A stretch of DNA of 38,463 nucleotides, from assembly GCA_007692645.1 (NCBI GenBank), contig REBR01000125.1:1-38463 (forward strand), given 5' to 3'. Both the position numbers and the translations under genes were made by a program. Under the pieces are notes generated by a model. That model did no database searches and was not told the origin of the DNA. It saw only the letters and a list, made by a program, of their open reading frames with translations. Shown piece by piece: positions 10,881 through 14,956 of the stretch. The stretch comes from Halomonadaceae bacterium. Lineage in GTDB: Bacteria; Pseudomonadota; Gammaproteobacteria; Pseudomonadales; Oleiphilaceae. How positions within the stretch are numbered: the stretch's first letter is position 1; each line of letters opens with the position of its first letter.

Positions 10881-11006
10881 AACGCGGGGCCCTTGTTGCC
10901 GGTCAGGGGTTCCGGGGGAAACCCTTGTAAGGGCGCATTATCGCAGGCTGGGGGGCTGCACTCAATTTTCTGTTGCCGGGCGACAGCGGCCATTCGGGAG
11001 CTACTC

Positions 11007-11093
11007 GGGGACAGGCCACGTTAAATGGGGACAGACCACGTTTTTAGCACTTCAAAAAACGTGGTCTGTCCCCATTTAACGTGGCCTGTCCCC
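11007..11093. repeat. 39-bp perfect inverted repeat (GTGGTCTGTCCCC family)
   Basis: Arms at 11007-11045 and 11055-11093 are perfect reverse complements around a 9-base loop. Each arm contains two variants of the same core: GGGGACAGGCCACG and GGGGACAGACCACG. It sits just after the lipase stop and before trpG. I recall this GGTCTGTCCCC core as a widespread gammaproteobacterial intergenic repeat, possibly mobilised by REP-associated transposases. The stem could also act as a strong transcriptional or mRNA-stability barrier. Confidence 0.9.
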
Positions 11094-11120
11094 AATTAAA
11101 CCCATGGAGCAGAGGCAGGG

Positions 11121-12290
11121 TTATAGCTGATTCAAGGTCTCTTTGGCGATGCGGTAAAGTGCCCCCAGAGTCTGATCAAACACCCAGCGGATAAAGCGGT
11201 AACTCAGTTCCCCCACCGTGATTGCGGTTTTACCGGCAAAAACCAGCATATGACCCAGTAAGCCACGGGTTTGCTCAGCGAAGTGAACGGAGGCCTTGGC
11301 AACGTTCTCCAGGGTGCGGGCCAACATGTCGTAAAAGGTCAGTGAGGTGCCAATGCCGGCCTGGGCCACCACCAGCGTGTAATAGCCCGCATCTTTAAGC
11401 AGGGTGACGAGGGCTGCGTTGAGCCGGTCAGCCCAGTAGCCGCTGAAGGATGCCTGGTGCCGGCGGTCATAACTCAGACGCACCGGCTGGTTCAAAAAGT
11501 CGCTGGATTGCTTTTGCAATCCTGACCAGTCACTGCCTTTTGCGGTGTTACGGTAGCCCGGGTTACCGGTCACCCCCATGGAATGAGCACCCAGGCTCAT
11601 GCCTTGACCACTGTCGAGACGGTATTCCAGGGCGCCCTGGTTGGGAGCGTGAATAAAAGGCCACAACGGCAGCTTGGGAACAACATCAGCGCCATGGGTG
11701 CAGCGGTAAATCTTGTGGCTGCTGCCGGTGGACTGGGTGGCGAAACCTTCCAGGCCGACCCGGGGCGCACCAAAGGTATATAGATTAACGGGACGCTGAT
11801 ACCTGGCCTTTATCCAGTCAGCAGCGAGGGATGCCAGGGCACCCCCGAGACTGTGGCCAACGCAGTGAACCAGACCGGCACTGTCGGAGCGTAACTGCGG
11901 GTTTAGCTGCTTTTCCAGCAGTGGCTTCATGGAGCTGAAGGTGGTGTTGAAACCGGCATGTACCGAGGGGCCGCCATGGGAGGGGCTGAGGCCGAAGTTG
12001 GCATCGGTGAGTTTGTCGTTGAGGGTTTTGGTGCCACGCAGAGCAACTACATGGTGCCCCTGATAGTGCGCTTTTCCCTGACCGATAACGGCAAAACCAG
12101 AGGTTCTACGGTAGAGCCCAAAAAAGCCGCCTGTTGACCCACGTATGGGGCCATTATTGAGGTCAAAGTTGAAAATAGCGTTTAATTCAGGGGTTCTTGG
12201 GAAATTGTAAATGCCGGTTTCACTAGGTTCCATGACTTCGTAAACCGCCTCGGCCAACTCTGCTGCGATAGCAGGGGTAAGAGGTAACAT
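11121..12290 (-). CDS. Class 3 lipase-family protein, possible toxic phospholipase effector
   Basis: A 389-residue alpha/beta hydrolase of the Lipase_3 type without a signal peptide. The triad is readable: S147 in VGHSLGG, D202 in THGADVVPKLP and H236 in SLGAHSMGV; YTFGAPRVG is also family-typical. After about residue 270 there is a helical, partly hydrophobic C-terminal region (TLVVAQAGIGTSLTF and LLGHMLVFAGKTAITVG) that could contact membranes. It lies 33 bases after a small membrane-anchored protein on the same strand, resembling lipase effector and immunity pairs of type VI secretion. No secretion genes are in this window, so this role is inferred. It interrupts the trp cluster. AAGGA precedes the ATG. 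Confidence 0.82.
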   Translation of the reverse strand: MLPLTPAIAAELAEAVYEVMEPSETGIYNFPRTPELNAIFNFDLNNGPIRGSTGGFFGLYRRTSGFAVIGQGKAHYQGHHVVALRGTKTLNDKLTDANFGLSPSHGGPSVHAGFNTTFSSMKPLLEKQLNPQLRSDSAGLVHCVGHSLGGALASLAADWIKARYQRPVNLYTFGAPRVGLEGFATQSTGSSHKIYRCTHGADVVPKLPLWPFIHAPNQGALEYRLDSGQGMSLGAHSMGVTGNPGYRNTAKGSDWSGLQKQSSDFLNQPVRLSYDRRHQASFSGYWADRLNAALVTLLKDAGYYTLVVAQAGIGTSLTFYDMLARTLENVAKASVHFAEQTRGLLGHMLVFAGKTAITVGELSYRFIRWVFDQTLGALYRIAKETLNQL

Positions 12291-12323
12291 AAGAAAATCC
12301 TTTTCCTGTTACAGATCTTTGCG

Positions 12324-12860
12324 CTATTCCCAGCGGCAAATACTTGAAATGTTATGGGTAAATGAGGGGTGCTCATGTCTCACAAAATGCTGCTGCTTCT
12401 CAGGGGTATCAAGATCACAGTGCATGGATGCCAGTTTATTTTTCACGGTAAGTTCAGGTTCTATACTGTCTGTGACTGCATACCACAGGACAAATTTTTC
12501 CCCCCCTGTTTCCGCATAAATGATTTGTCGGTTGCGTGTTTCGTCGAGCAAACGCCCGGGGATACGTGAGCGGATCCATTTCTCTTGGAAGTGAAATTTC
12601 CCTTGAGCATCGGTGGTGGTTTTTTCGATGTTTTCTTTACCGTAAGTCAGAGAGCGAAATACATTTATCCCTGCCTGGGGCTTACCTTGTTGCATGATTT
12701 GCCCATGCACTTCAGGAGATAAGTGGACATCGTAACGTTTAAGAATCCAGAACATCCCCGCTATTCCCTGTGTTGAGAAGCTAAGTAAAATAAATCCAAG
12801 CAGAAGCTGCGCTAATTTCTTTCGTAAGCGCCAGGTATGAGTATCAGCAGGAGAAGACAT
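12324..12860 (-). CDS. Membrane-anchored beta-sandwich protein, candidate immunity partner of the lipase
   Basis: A 178-residue protein from the ATG at 12860; the frame could extend upstream but the added residues look non-coding. It has a single hydrophobic segment near residues 16-38 (KLAQLLLGFILLSF), then HLSPEVHGQIMQQGKPQAGI, RSLTYGK and TTDAQGKFHF, a pattern like carboxypeptidase-regulatory or transthyretin-type beta domains. I recall DUF6795-type domains with similar VxLSPxVxG openings near lipases, but this is unverified. Placed immediately upstream of the lipase, it could be periplasmic immunity. Base composition looks more AT-rich than the trp genes, consistent with acquisition. Confidence 0.65.
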   Translation of the reverse strand: MSSPADTHTWRLRKKLAQLLLGFILLSFSTQGIAGMFWILKRYDVHLSPEVHGQIMQQGKPQAGINVFRSLTYGKENIEKTTTDAQGKFHFQEKWIRSRIPGRLLDETRNRQIIYAETGGEKFVLWYAVTDSIEPELTVKNKLASMHCDLDTPEKQQHFVRHEHPSFTHNISSICRWE

Positions 12861-13016
12861 AACGAACCCGTTCCTTGTTCGAGAAATACCCAGACGGGAC
12901 AAGAATTGCCTTCCTGGCATCTGCGGGAAAACTAACCGAGGCTATCAAAAGGGTCAAGAAGCGCCCCCACAAATTGACAGGGGCGACCTGAAATGAGCTC
13001 AAGGGTCGGGGCAGGG

Positions 13017-13234: not shown

Positions 13235-14731
13235 TCAGTCCCGGAACGCGTCATGGAAATCACTCAGGGCCATATCCGCCGCCCGGAAGATGGCACGGCC
13301 CTTGTTCTTGGTTTCTTTCCACTCCAGCCGCGGCACCGAGTCTGCCACCACGCCGGCGCCGGCCTGGATATGCAGGACCTGATCCTTGATCACGGCGGTG
13401 CGGATGGCGATGGCGGTGTCCATCTTGCCGGTCCAGGACAGGTAGCCCACGGCGCCGCCGTAGACGCCCCGCTTTACCGGTTCCAGTTCGTCGAGGATTT
13501 CCATGGCGCGGATTTTGGGGGCACCGCTTAGGGTGCCTGCGGGCAGGGTGGCCCGCAGCACGTCCATGGGGGTCAGGTCGGCCCGCAGCTGGCCGCTGAC
13601 GTTGGATACGATGTGCATGACGTGGGAGTAGCGTTCAACGGCCATTTTATCCGTGACCTTTACCGTGCCGGTGTCACAGACCCGGCCGATATCGTTGCGG
13701 CCCAGGTCGATGAGCATCAGGTGTTCTGCCAGTTCCTTGGGGTCTGCCAGCAGCTCTTCTTCCAGGGCCTGGTCCTGGGCCCGGGTGGCACCCCGCTTGC
13801 GGGTACCGGCCAGGGGGCGCACCGTCACTTCGTTGTCTTCCACCCGGGCGAGAATTTCCGGTGAGGAACCGACAATGTAAAAATCCCCCAGGTTCAGGTA
13901 ATACATATAAGGGGATGGGTTCAGGCAGCGCAGGGCCCGGTACAGGTTCAGGGGCGGTGCGGCGAAGGGCACGGACATGCGCTGGGACAGCACGGTCTGC
14001 ATCACGTCCCCATCCAGCACGTACTCGCGGATTTTCTCCACTGCCGCCTCAAATTCCGTCTGGCTGAGACCGGAGTGGAAGTCTTCCTCCCGGATCGGCG
14101 GGTGGTCCACCGGGCTTACCGGGCCGCGGGCGGTGCTCTGGCGCAGCATCTGCTCCAGCTCATCCAGCCGGGCCAGGGCCTGATTGTAGGCGTCTGGCAG
14201 TGCCGGGTCGGTCTGTACGATCAGGCTCAGCTTGCCCCGCAGGTTATCAAACACCACCACTTCATCGGACAGCATCAGCAGGATATCCGGGTTGCCCAGG
14301 GGGTCGTCCACCGGTGCCTTGCCCGCCAGGCGGGGTTCGATATAGCGCACCGTGTCATAGCCGAAATAGCCCACCAGGCCGCCATTGAAGCGGGGCAGCT
14401 CCGGCAGGTCAGGGGCCCGGTAGCGGGCCTGGAACTGCTCGATGTAGGCCAGGGGGTCCCTGACTTCCTCGCTACTGAGCTGCTGGTCATCCCGTTCGTG
14501 GATCACCTGGTGGCCAATTACCCGCAGCCGCTCCCGGGCCGGCAGACCGATAATGGAGTAGCGGCCCCATTGCTCGCCCCCCTGTACGGACTCCAGCAGA
14601 TAGGAGTAGGGGCCGTCAGCCAGCTTGAGATAGGTGCTCAGGGGGGTGTCGAGATCGGCGAAGACCTCCCGGTAGACGGGAATACGGTTGTAGCCTTCAC
14701 CGGCATAGGCGGCAAATTGTTCGGGGCTCAT
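13235..14731 (-). CDS. trpE: Anthranilate synthase component I
   Basis: A 498-residue chorismate-utilising enzyme that makes anthranilate with TrpG. The start at 14731 follows AGGAAACCCTT on the minus strand. The N-terminal LLES motif with [11 protein letters not shown] is the tryptophan feedback site of known TrpE proteins. Catalytic blocks are [50 protein letters not shown] and [12 protein letters not shown]. It is preceded by a leader peptide gene and hairpin, implying attenuation. It is cut off from trpG by an inserted cassette. Confidence 0.97.
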
Positions 14732-14743
14732 AAGGGTTTCCTG

Positions 14744-14784
14744 AAAAAAGCATGGGCAAAGGGCAGTGTGCCGACAGCACACCC
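14744..14784 (-). terminator. Candidate trp attenuator hairpin
   Basis: On the minus strand GGG-TGTGC pairs with GCACA-tg-CCC (plus 14761-14784), and a run of six T follows at 14749-14744 after a 10-base spacer. It starts 18 bases after the leader stop codon and ends shortly before trpE. The order leader peptide, hairpin, T run, trpE is the attenuation layout. The competing antiterminator pairing was not resolved by eye. Confidence 0.55.
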
Positions 14785-14802
14785 GGTATCAGTGGCCGTG
14801 CA

Positions 14803-14877
14803 TTACCATCGCCAGCGCGGATTTGCCCGGGTTGCAGGGTGCAGGTTCAGAGTGGCTTTTTTCAGTCCGGTGGTCAC
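14803..14877 (-). CDS. trpL: trp leader peptide (24 residues, ends RWRW)
   Basis: A minus-strand GTG at 14877 follows a consensus AAGGAG with seven-base spacing. The frame encodes 24 residues beginning MTTGLKKATLNLHP and ending RWRW before a TAA stop, with TGG codons at positions 22 and 24. Two near-adjacent Trp codons directly before the stop are the hallmark of a ribosome-stalling trp leader. It lies between a candidate promoter and the hairpin upstream of trpE. Stalling at the TGG codons when charged tRNA-Trp is scarce should favour read-through into trpE. Confidence 0.8.
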   Translation of the reverse strand: MTTGLKKATLNLHPATRANPRWRW

Positions 14878-14927
14878 ACCCGGTCTCCTTGTGATTCCGG
14901 TAGGGAAGCGTGTTGATTCAGAGGTAA

Positions 14928-14956
14928 AGATTACCTAAGGCCCTTGTGGTTCGCAA
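14928..14956 (-). promoter_or_regulatory. Candidate trp promoter
   Basis: On the minus strand TTGCGA (14956-14951) and TAATCT (14933-14928) are separated by 17 bases. They lie about 50 bases upstream of the leader start codon. The match to the consensus boxes is modest; the call rests mainly on position. Confidence 0.35.

Follow-up and report, generated by a model that had tools for sequence, protein, structure and literature searches.

A tryptophan-sensing trpE leader and its putative translational lock on the trpE ribosome-binding region

The trpE locus and its leader

In the window, by which we mean the whole 38,463-nucleotide stretch of DNA analysed here, trpE, encoding anthranilate synthase component I (Pfam Anth_synt_I_N and Chorismate_bind), occupies positions 13235-14731 of the minus strand, with its ATG at 14731 and, by sequence reading, a Shine-Dalgarno (SD) sequence AGGA at 14739-14742 (minus strand). 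According to Pfam, trpG, trpD, and trpC lie farther along from trpE, and two further genes, one for a class-3 lipase (Lipase_3) and one with DUF6795, are located between trpE and trpGDC (window 11121-12920). By eye, the gap between the lipase gene and trpG contains a long near-perfect inverted repeat of GGGGACAGRCCACGTT units (11007-11093, minus strand), which resembles a mobile or REP-like element. No trp leader was seen ahead of trpG in a reading of positions 10881-11120.

Upstream of trpE and likewise on the minus strand, the list of open reading frames and the comparison with relatives gave a trp leader ORF of 24 codons (14803-14877) with a GTG start (14877), the deduced peptide MTTGLKKATLNLHPATRANPRWRW, and a TAA stop codon (14805-14803). 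Its SD sequence AAGGAG (14885-14890), read from the sequence and supported by relatives, lies 7 nt 5′ of the GTG and is itself preceded by a promoter-like pair (14928-14956), composed of TTGCGA (14956-14951) and TAATCT (14933-14928) with a spacer of 17 nt. Codons 22 and 24 of the ORF specify Trp and its end reads CGC-UGG-CGA-UGG-UAA, so that the putative sensor codons UGG-CGA-UGG (codons 22-24, 14806-14814), which also stand out by the conservation of their CGA, adjoin the stop codon. The promoter-like pair, the AAGGAG, and the 24-residue peptide with Trp at positions 22 and 24 before the stop had been described in the original prediction, and all of them were found in their places. A local hairpin, GUGUGC-UGUCG-GCACAC (14766-14782, arms 14782-14777 and 14771-14766), which was obtained from the inverted-repeat listing and by folding, follows 3′ of the leader stop, and a TTTTTT tract (14749-14744, minus strand) is located directly 5′ of the trpE SD sequence.

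By eye, the same promoter layout (TTGnnn, 17 nt, TAAyCT) recurs in several relatives, with TATCCT as the second element in L006. A generic promoter scan of the window did not list the leader's promoter-like pair (0 sites found versus 0.3 expected). A palindrome AGGTAA-TCT-TTACCT (14922-14936) overlaps the −10 element of the leader promoter and is not obvious in the sister genus. Loci of the large genus (e.g. L007, L009, and L131) appear by eye to carry the leader promoter, TTGATT-17-TAATCT/TAACCT, inside the apparent end of the upstream gene, which we take to be gph, and in such loci the leader −10 element overlaps the apparent stop codon of that gene.

The genus of the window is represented by one genome, its own. 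The search of its family, which is presumably Marinobacter-like, covered 151 genomes, 149 of which gave a match, and 146 trpE upstream regions were used, omitting G016 and G038 (no match) and G080, G085, and G122 (weak, paralogue-like matches). A rule-based search found a WRW/WWRW leader in 109 of these 146 regions, in agreement with the original prediction, which had named the conservation of RWRW in related trpE leaders as a check. The remaining regions comprised 17 leaderless ones, 17 with other Trp patterns (e.g. RWR or RWC ends), and three that were left unresolved (L118, L126, L130). Within the family, the helix tests described below cover the set of WRW-type leaders. An example from the sister genus is MTAGLKEATLIVHPARWANPRWRW, and in the largest genus the leaders have RATRWWRWRTG endings. 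Outside the family, 140 loci were compared, 80 of them among the matches listed and 60 hand-chosen from 194 genomes of the order, two sources that may share identical or close organisms; some of the loci we assume to be Pseudomonas. By rule, 61 of these 140 loci from other Gammaproteobacteria possessed a W[RL]W leader, 59 of which were distinct. Judged by its sequence, the ORF ahead of trpE is a Trp-sensing leader peptide whose Trp codons are conserved.

The CGA codon between the Trp codons

Arg between the two Trp residues (14809-14811 in the window) was encoded by CGA in each of the 109 leaders of the family, which represent 89 distinct ORFs, and at 45 of 60 non-family sites. For Arg directly after Trp, CGA was used in only 2/102 cases in the family and in 3/20 cases outside it. 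Since CGA is common elsewhere in the family leaders (68/216 of the other Arg codons, and 95/111 of the Arg codons before the first Trp), the contrast with Arg after Trp is the only sharp one there. In the non-family leaders the codon between the Trp codons was CGA in 42 of 57 leaders, compared to 6 of 62 other Arg codons in these leaders (Fisher, 4e-13), and Arg before but not after a Trp was encoded by CGA in 6 of 31 cases. In ten genes of the window, CGA accounted for 7 of 351 Arg codons.

As for the reason for this conservation, a base-pairing function of the conserved TGGCGATGG was considered and rejected, as a complementary 6-mer was present in the spacer of only 10/109 family and 4/59 non-family leaders; because of this rarity we prefer a reason at the level of the codon. 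An out-of-frame ORF starting from the ATG within CGATGG was also discarded, being short or unlike between genera in the five loci inspected. A study on the Salmonella his leader describes CGA as slow in vivo (PMC4046918). In the leader described here, CGA may sharpen the response to Trp.

Long-range and local pairing upstream of trpE

The leader start and the region directly upstream of trpE form a perfect 11/11 inverted repeat, termed helix A, in which leader codons 5-8 are complementary to the T-run/CAG stretch before the trpE SD sequence. The 5′ strand CUGAAAAAAGC (14855-14865, minus strand) lies within these codons, and the 3′ strand GCUUUUUUCAG (14741-14751, minus strand) consists of the T run and the first bases of the SD sequence; both strands were delimited from the inverted repeat, swap tests, and shuffles. 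An 11-nt repeat at this place occurred in 0 of 2000 dinucleotide shuffles and anywhere in the sequence in 5 of 2000. This rarity and the presence of WRW/WWRW in 109 of the 146 family upstream regions indicate that the leader is more than a chance arrangement. For the window alone, a 60-nt duplex statistic was unremarkable against composition shuffles (z −0.22), so that the support for its helix comes from the exact 11-mer and from homology with relatives.

Other genera mostly lack a T run at this position, yet complementarity between the two sites is maintained in different letters, such as CUGAAUCUGACUGC with GCAGAUCAGAUUUCAG in many relatives, CUGAAUUUGAC with GUCAAAUAACAG in L009 and L013, CUGAAAACGACU with AGUCUUUUCAG in L128, and CUGAAGCGAACUGC with GCAGUUCAGACUUCAG in L162. 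This complementarity was analysed by a partner-swap test, in which strands are exchanged between genomes, so that composition is preserved and only the match is broken. For the 87 distinct pairs among the 109 family leaders, the mean pairing energy was −17.6 kcal/mol for a genome's own partner and −15.4 kcal/mol for swapped partners (z −10). With 22 hand-picked divergent sequences the values were −16.1 and −11.0 kcal/mol, respectively, and none of 20000 permutations was as good; the own partner ranked first in 10 of the 22 and poorly in L113, L206, and L014. In the 59 non-family leaders, pairing of positions −20 to +40 of the leader with positions −32 to −5 of the own trpE gave z −9.8 (p ≤ 5e-5), as opposed to −0.25 and −1.4 for control stretches upstream and downstream. 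After removal of look-alikes (n = 50) a z of −8.7 was retained, and after additional removal of the ten strongest leaders one of −5.1; in the look-alike-filtered set, the controls leader start versus trpE coding sequence and leader start versus −62 to −34 (n = 39) gave −0.5 and −1.1. Complementarity to the trpE ribosome-binding region was maximal at about nucleotides 0-35 of the leader and intermediate just upstream.

A two-dimensional scan with every second sequence showed the strongest covariation for helix A and for the local hairpin after the leader stop, both with z −6.7. In the predicted duplexes at least half of the trpE SD sequence was paired in 96/99 family and 51/57 non-family leaders. 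At the level of single loci, a z below −1.5 was reached by 95 of the 109 family leaders and by only 24 of the 59 distant ones. The trpL leader of E. coli, included as one classical attenuator for comparison, showed no pairing of leader start and ribosome-binding region (z +0.56). By eye, L029 has apparently retained the helix and newly extended it by GAACGG/CCGUUC, but in a displaced position, some 20 nt 5′ of the trpE SD sequence.

Column counts in a hand-chosen alignment of 46 sequences gave a weaker signal. While 87.1% of the cells were paired compared to 20-37% when the strands were slid, reshuffling of the 3′ letters still left 86.1% paired, and 13 of 500 reshuffles were as high as the real alignment. 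The corresponding numbers were 14/500 for the covariation score, 39/500 for pairs changed on both sides, 181/500 for pair types, and 1/500 for cells changed on both sides. The support from the alignment is only modest because the helix strands shift within a sequence alignment. Together with the relatedness of the family sequences and the inconspicuous duplex statistic of the window, these counts are what could be expected if the complementarity were a functionless by-product of base composition or common ancestry. We consider such an origin very improbable, as the partner swaps, which keep composition, were strongly significant in the 59 distant leaders even without look-alikes and their controls were near null, and as none of the shuffles had the 11-mer at its place. 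The region of leader initiation and the ribosome-binding region of trpE are thus, as far as sequence comparison can tell, connected by a long-range helix that is conserved by covariation, with less weight from column counts. A conserved covarying helix at the trpE ribosome-binding site points to translational control, and the control of trpE is probably translational.

A further comparison was provided by 17 family genomes without a leader (L026, L149, L154, L164, L165, L176, L180, L183, L187, L189, L191, L203, L210, L214, L218, L220, and L221), in which an apparent stop codon of the upstream gene is directly followed by the trpE ribosome-binding stretch. The 3′ strand of helix A was altered in 16 of them and retained in L183. 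The energies of pairing with the consensus strand ranged from −10.8 to −15.5 for these 16, which is weaker than the mean of −18.8 for leader-bearing genomes (n = 83), although the ranges overlap (worst leader-bearing value, −11.6). As the leaderless genomes are related to each other, they represent few independent losses.

The original prediction had described a hairpin followed by a T run before trpE as part of a complete trp attenuation leader. Both elements exist in this order; the hairpin GTGTGC/GCACAC and the TTTTTT are, however, 16 nt apart in the window, and a terminator scan of the window revealed no terminator-like site, so that they do not form a terminator unit. Folding, which had been suggested as a means to distinguish terminator and antiterminator, gave structures no better than those of shuffled sequences for either the 190-nt leader (z −0.46) or the 72-nt spacer (z +0.28). 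An Rfam search found no Trp_leader and no T-box match; its single hit was a sub-threshold 5S. With a relaxed rule requiring a hairpin plus a U tract, 9/109 family leaders were positive, the window among them through weak pairs, and 13/59 non-family leaders. We therefore set aside the textbook terminator/antiterminator reading, for which the 16-nt gap, the lack of a scored site, folds like those of shuffles, and hairpins with U tracts in only 9 of 109 family leaders leave little support. What stands of the predicted attenuation leader is the Trp-sensing leader with conserved Trp codons, and what lacks support, with no terminator-like site scored in the window, is its mutually exclusive terminator and antiterminator.

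Classical transcription attenuation could also operate through another helix. The inverted-repeat listing contains a helix B, whose 5′ strand GGGCAAA (14822-14828, minus strand) lies just 5′ of the Trp codons and whose 3′ strand UUUGCCC (14754-14760, minus strand), located with the help of the sister genus, adjoins helix A. Either helix B or the GTGTGC hairpin would then be a terminator ending at TTTTTT, and a ribosome stalled at W22, which by position would cover GGGCAAA, would block helix B and permit read-through. The places of helix B are occupied by UGGGCG/CGCCCA in three of four sister-genus genomes, a double change from A:U to G:C in agreement with this scheme, and the T6 is present in the window and in three of the four as well; Trp-codon leader genes are, moreover, typical of attenuators, the window satisfies the relaxed rule, and trpE of Pseudomonas putida is reportedly regulated "by attenuation", going by the title of Olekhnovich and Gussin 2001. 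Against it, L005 is mismatched in helix B and L003 interrupts the T run, which also lies 4 nt from helix B, farther still from the hairpin, and directly before the trpE SD sequence. The Trp-codon region had no strong covarying partner in the two-dimensional scan, in which the long-range covariation fell on helix A, and helix B can be proposed for just two genera. Considering also the negative terminator scan and the rarity of hairpins with U tracts in the family, we regard classical attenuation as unlikely, though termination at the T run may occur in the genus of the window and its sister genus. From its pairing, the T run reads as the 3′ half of the long-range helix rather than as a terminator tail.

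Ribosome positions and comparison with known systems

The influence of ribosomes on helix A was modelled by folding the RNA with the footprint of a ribosome held unpaired and calculating the cost of opening positions −15 to +4 of trpE (in kcal/mol). For 29 hand-picked family leaders, the mean cost was 8.1 for the free RNA, 7.9 with a lone ribosome stalled at the first Trp codon, 4.7 with one queued behind it, 4.2 with a ribosome at the leader start, and 8.0 with a ribosome at the stop. The corresponding values for the window were 12.3, 11.9, 6.2, 5.4, and 12.3, and those for 57 non-family leaders 10.9, 9.7, 6.9, 6.9, and 10.5. In the window, some 40 nt separate the end of the 5′ strand of helix A from the first Trp codon, so that this strand would be out of reach for a lone stalled ribosome but would be masked by a queue or by continued loading. 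As the mean predicted cost hardly responds to a lone stall, queueing must be added to the model; with a queued ribosome the cost fell by over 1 kcal/mol in 23 of the 29 family leaders and did not do so in the other six. In some short distant leaders, such as L033, L063, and L076, the predicted cost was clearly lowered by a lone stall.

We lean, if only slightly, towards a Trp-sensing leader that places a translational lock on trpE through pairing of its own initiation region with the ribosome-binding region of that gene. The sensor would be the UGG-CGA-UGG end of the 24-codon ORF, and the output ribosome access to trpE. With plentiful Trp, ribosomes would clear the leader and leave its start region free, so that helix A closes and shuts both trpE and re-initiation at the leader. 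When charged tRNA-Trp is scarce, ribosomes would stall at the slow Trp-CGA-Trp end, and followers would queue or occupy the leader start, with the consequence that helix A cannot form and trpE is translated; untranslated trpE mRNA may be cut short, for example by Rho. We infer the formation of the helix in vivo, its block of initiation, its opening by stalling or queueing, and the shortening of the mRNA. The step in which a queue of ribosomes opens the lock, a product of the folding models, is tentative.

In the models a ribosome at the leader start lowered the predicted cost as much as a queue did, which would also fit a plain translational lock that reports leader translation in general, with a Trp response arising by re-initiation or coupling from the leader stop 71 nt upstream. 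Leader stop and trpE lie close together, at 48-128 nt for most of the 109 family leaders and at a median of 64 nt for the 59 non-family ones, which is compatible with this alternative. It leaves the conserved Trp codons and the intervening CGA unexplained, and we consider it improbable. The Trp-sensing lock might, more speculatively, represent a widespread class of trpE control in Gammaproteobacteria, in which leader and trpE ribosome-binding regions of one mRNA are locked by mutual pairing and opened by a ribosome queue behind a slow UGG-CGA-UGG, the signal being ribosome traffic and not the switching of a terminator.

The trp attenuator is the textbook example of how a ribosome can control transcription, and if a large share of the Gammaproteobacteria run a Trp sensor into a translational lock, many trp "attenuators" may be misfiled by mechanism. 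If the lock is true, the slow CGA conserved within the sensor would be a testable tuning element, and the leaderless genomes would offer a natural comparison.

Like the E. coli trpL-trpE attenuator (Rfam Trp_leader), the locus places a short ORF with a cluster of Trp codons ahead of trpE. In E. coli K-12, however, a GC hairpin and a subsequent T8 lie between trpL and trpE, and the leader start shows no pairing with the ribosome-binding region (z 0.56), whereas the window has no evident terminator and no Rfam match. In P. putida, which probably belongs to the same order as the organism of the window, trpE would be under leader regulation as well. In translational attenuation of the ermC/cat type, a ribosome stalled in the leader frees a sequestered ribosome-binding site and the stall site overlaps the 5′ strand, unlike in the window, where the 5′ strand ends some 40 nt short of the first Trp codon. 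The parts of the open-licence literature that we consulted yielded no description of a pairing between leader start and ribosome-binding site at trpE or of a conserved CGA between leader Trp codons. In E. coli toiL-topAI (PMC12121999), ribosomes that stall in an upstream ORF disrupt the pairing at the downstream ribosome-binding site, which in turn leads to Rho termination. This resembles the output proposed for trpE, in which pairing at the downstream ribosome-binding site would likewise be opened by stalling in an upstream ORF; toiL-topAI differs in sensing ribosome-targeting antibiotics and controlling a toxin-antitoxin gene, compared to an amino acid and a biosynthetic gene here. The LEU element of actinobacterial leuA (PMC1262725) also combines a leader with regulatory codons and a stem involving the SD sequence of an amino acid gene, but in that element the SD sequence is bound by the run of regulatory codons, with a pseudoknot, while in the window it is the leader start and not the codon run that pairs with the SD region. 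This comparison suggests a variant of known attenuation-type control in which the sensor is ordinary and the output, by the mechanism proposed here, would be unusual.
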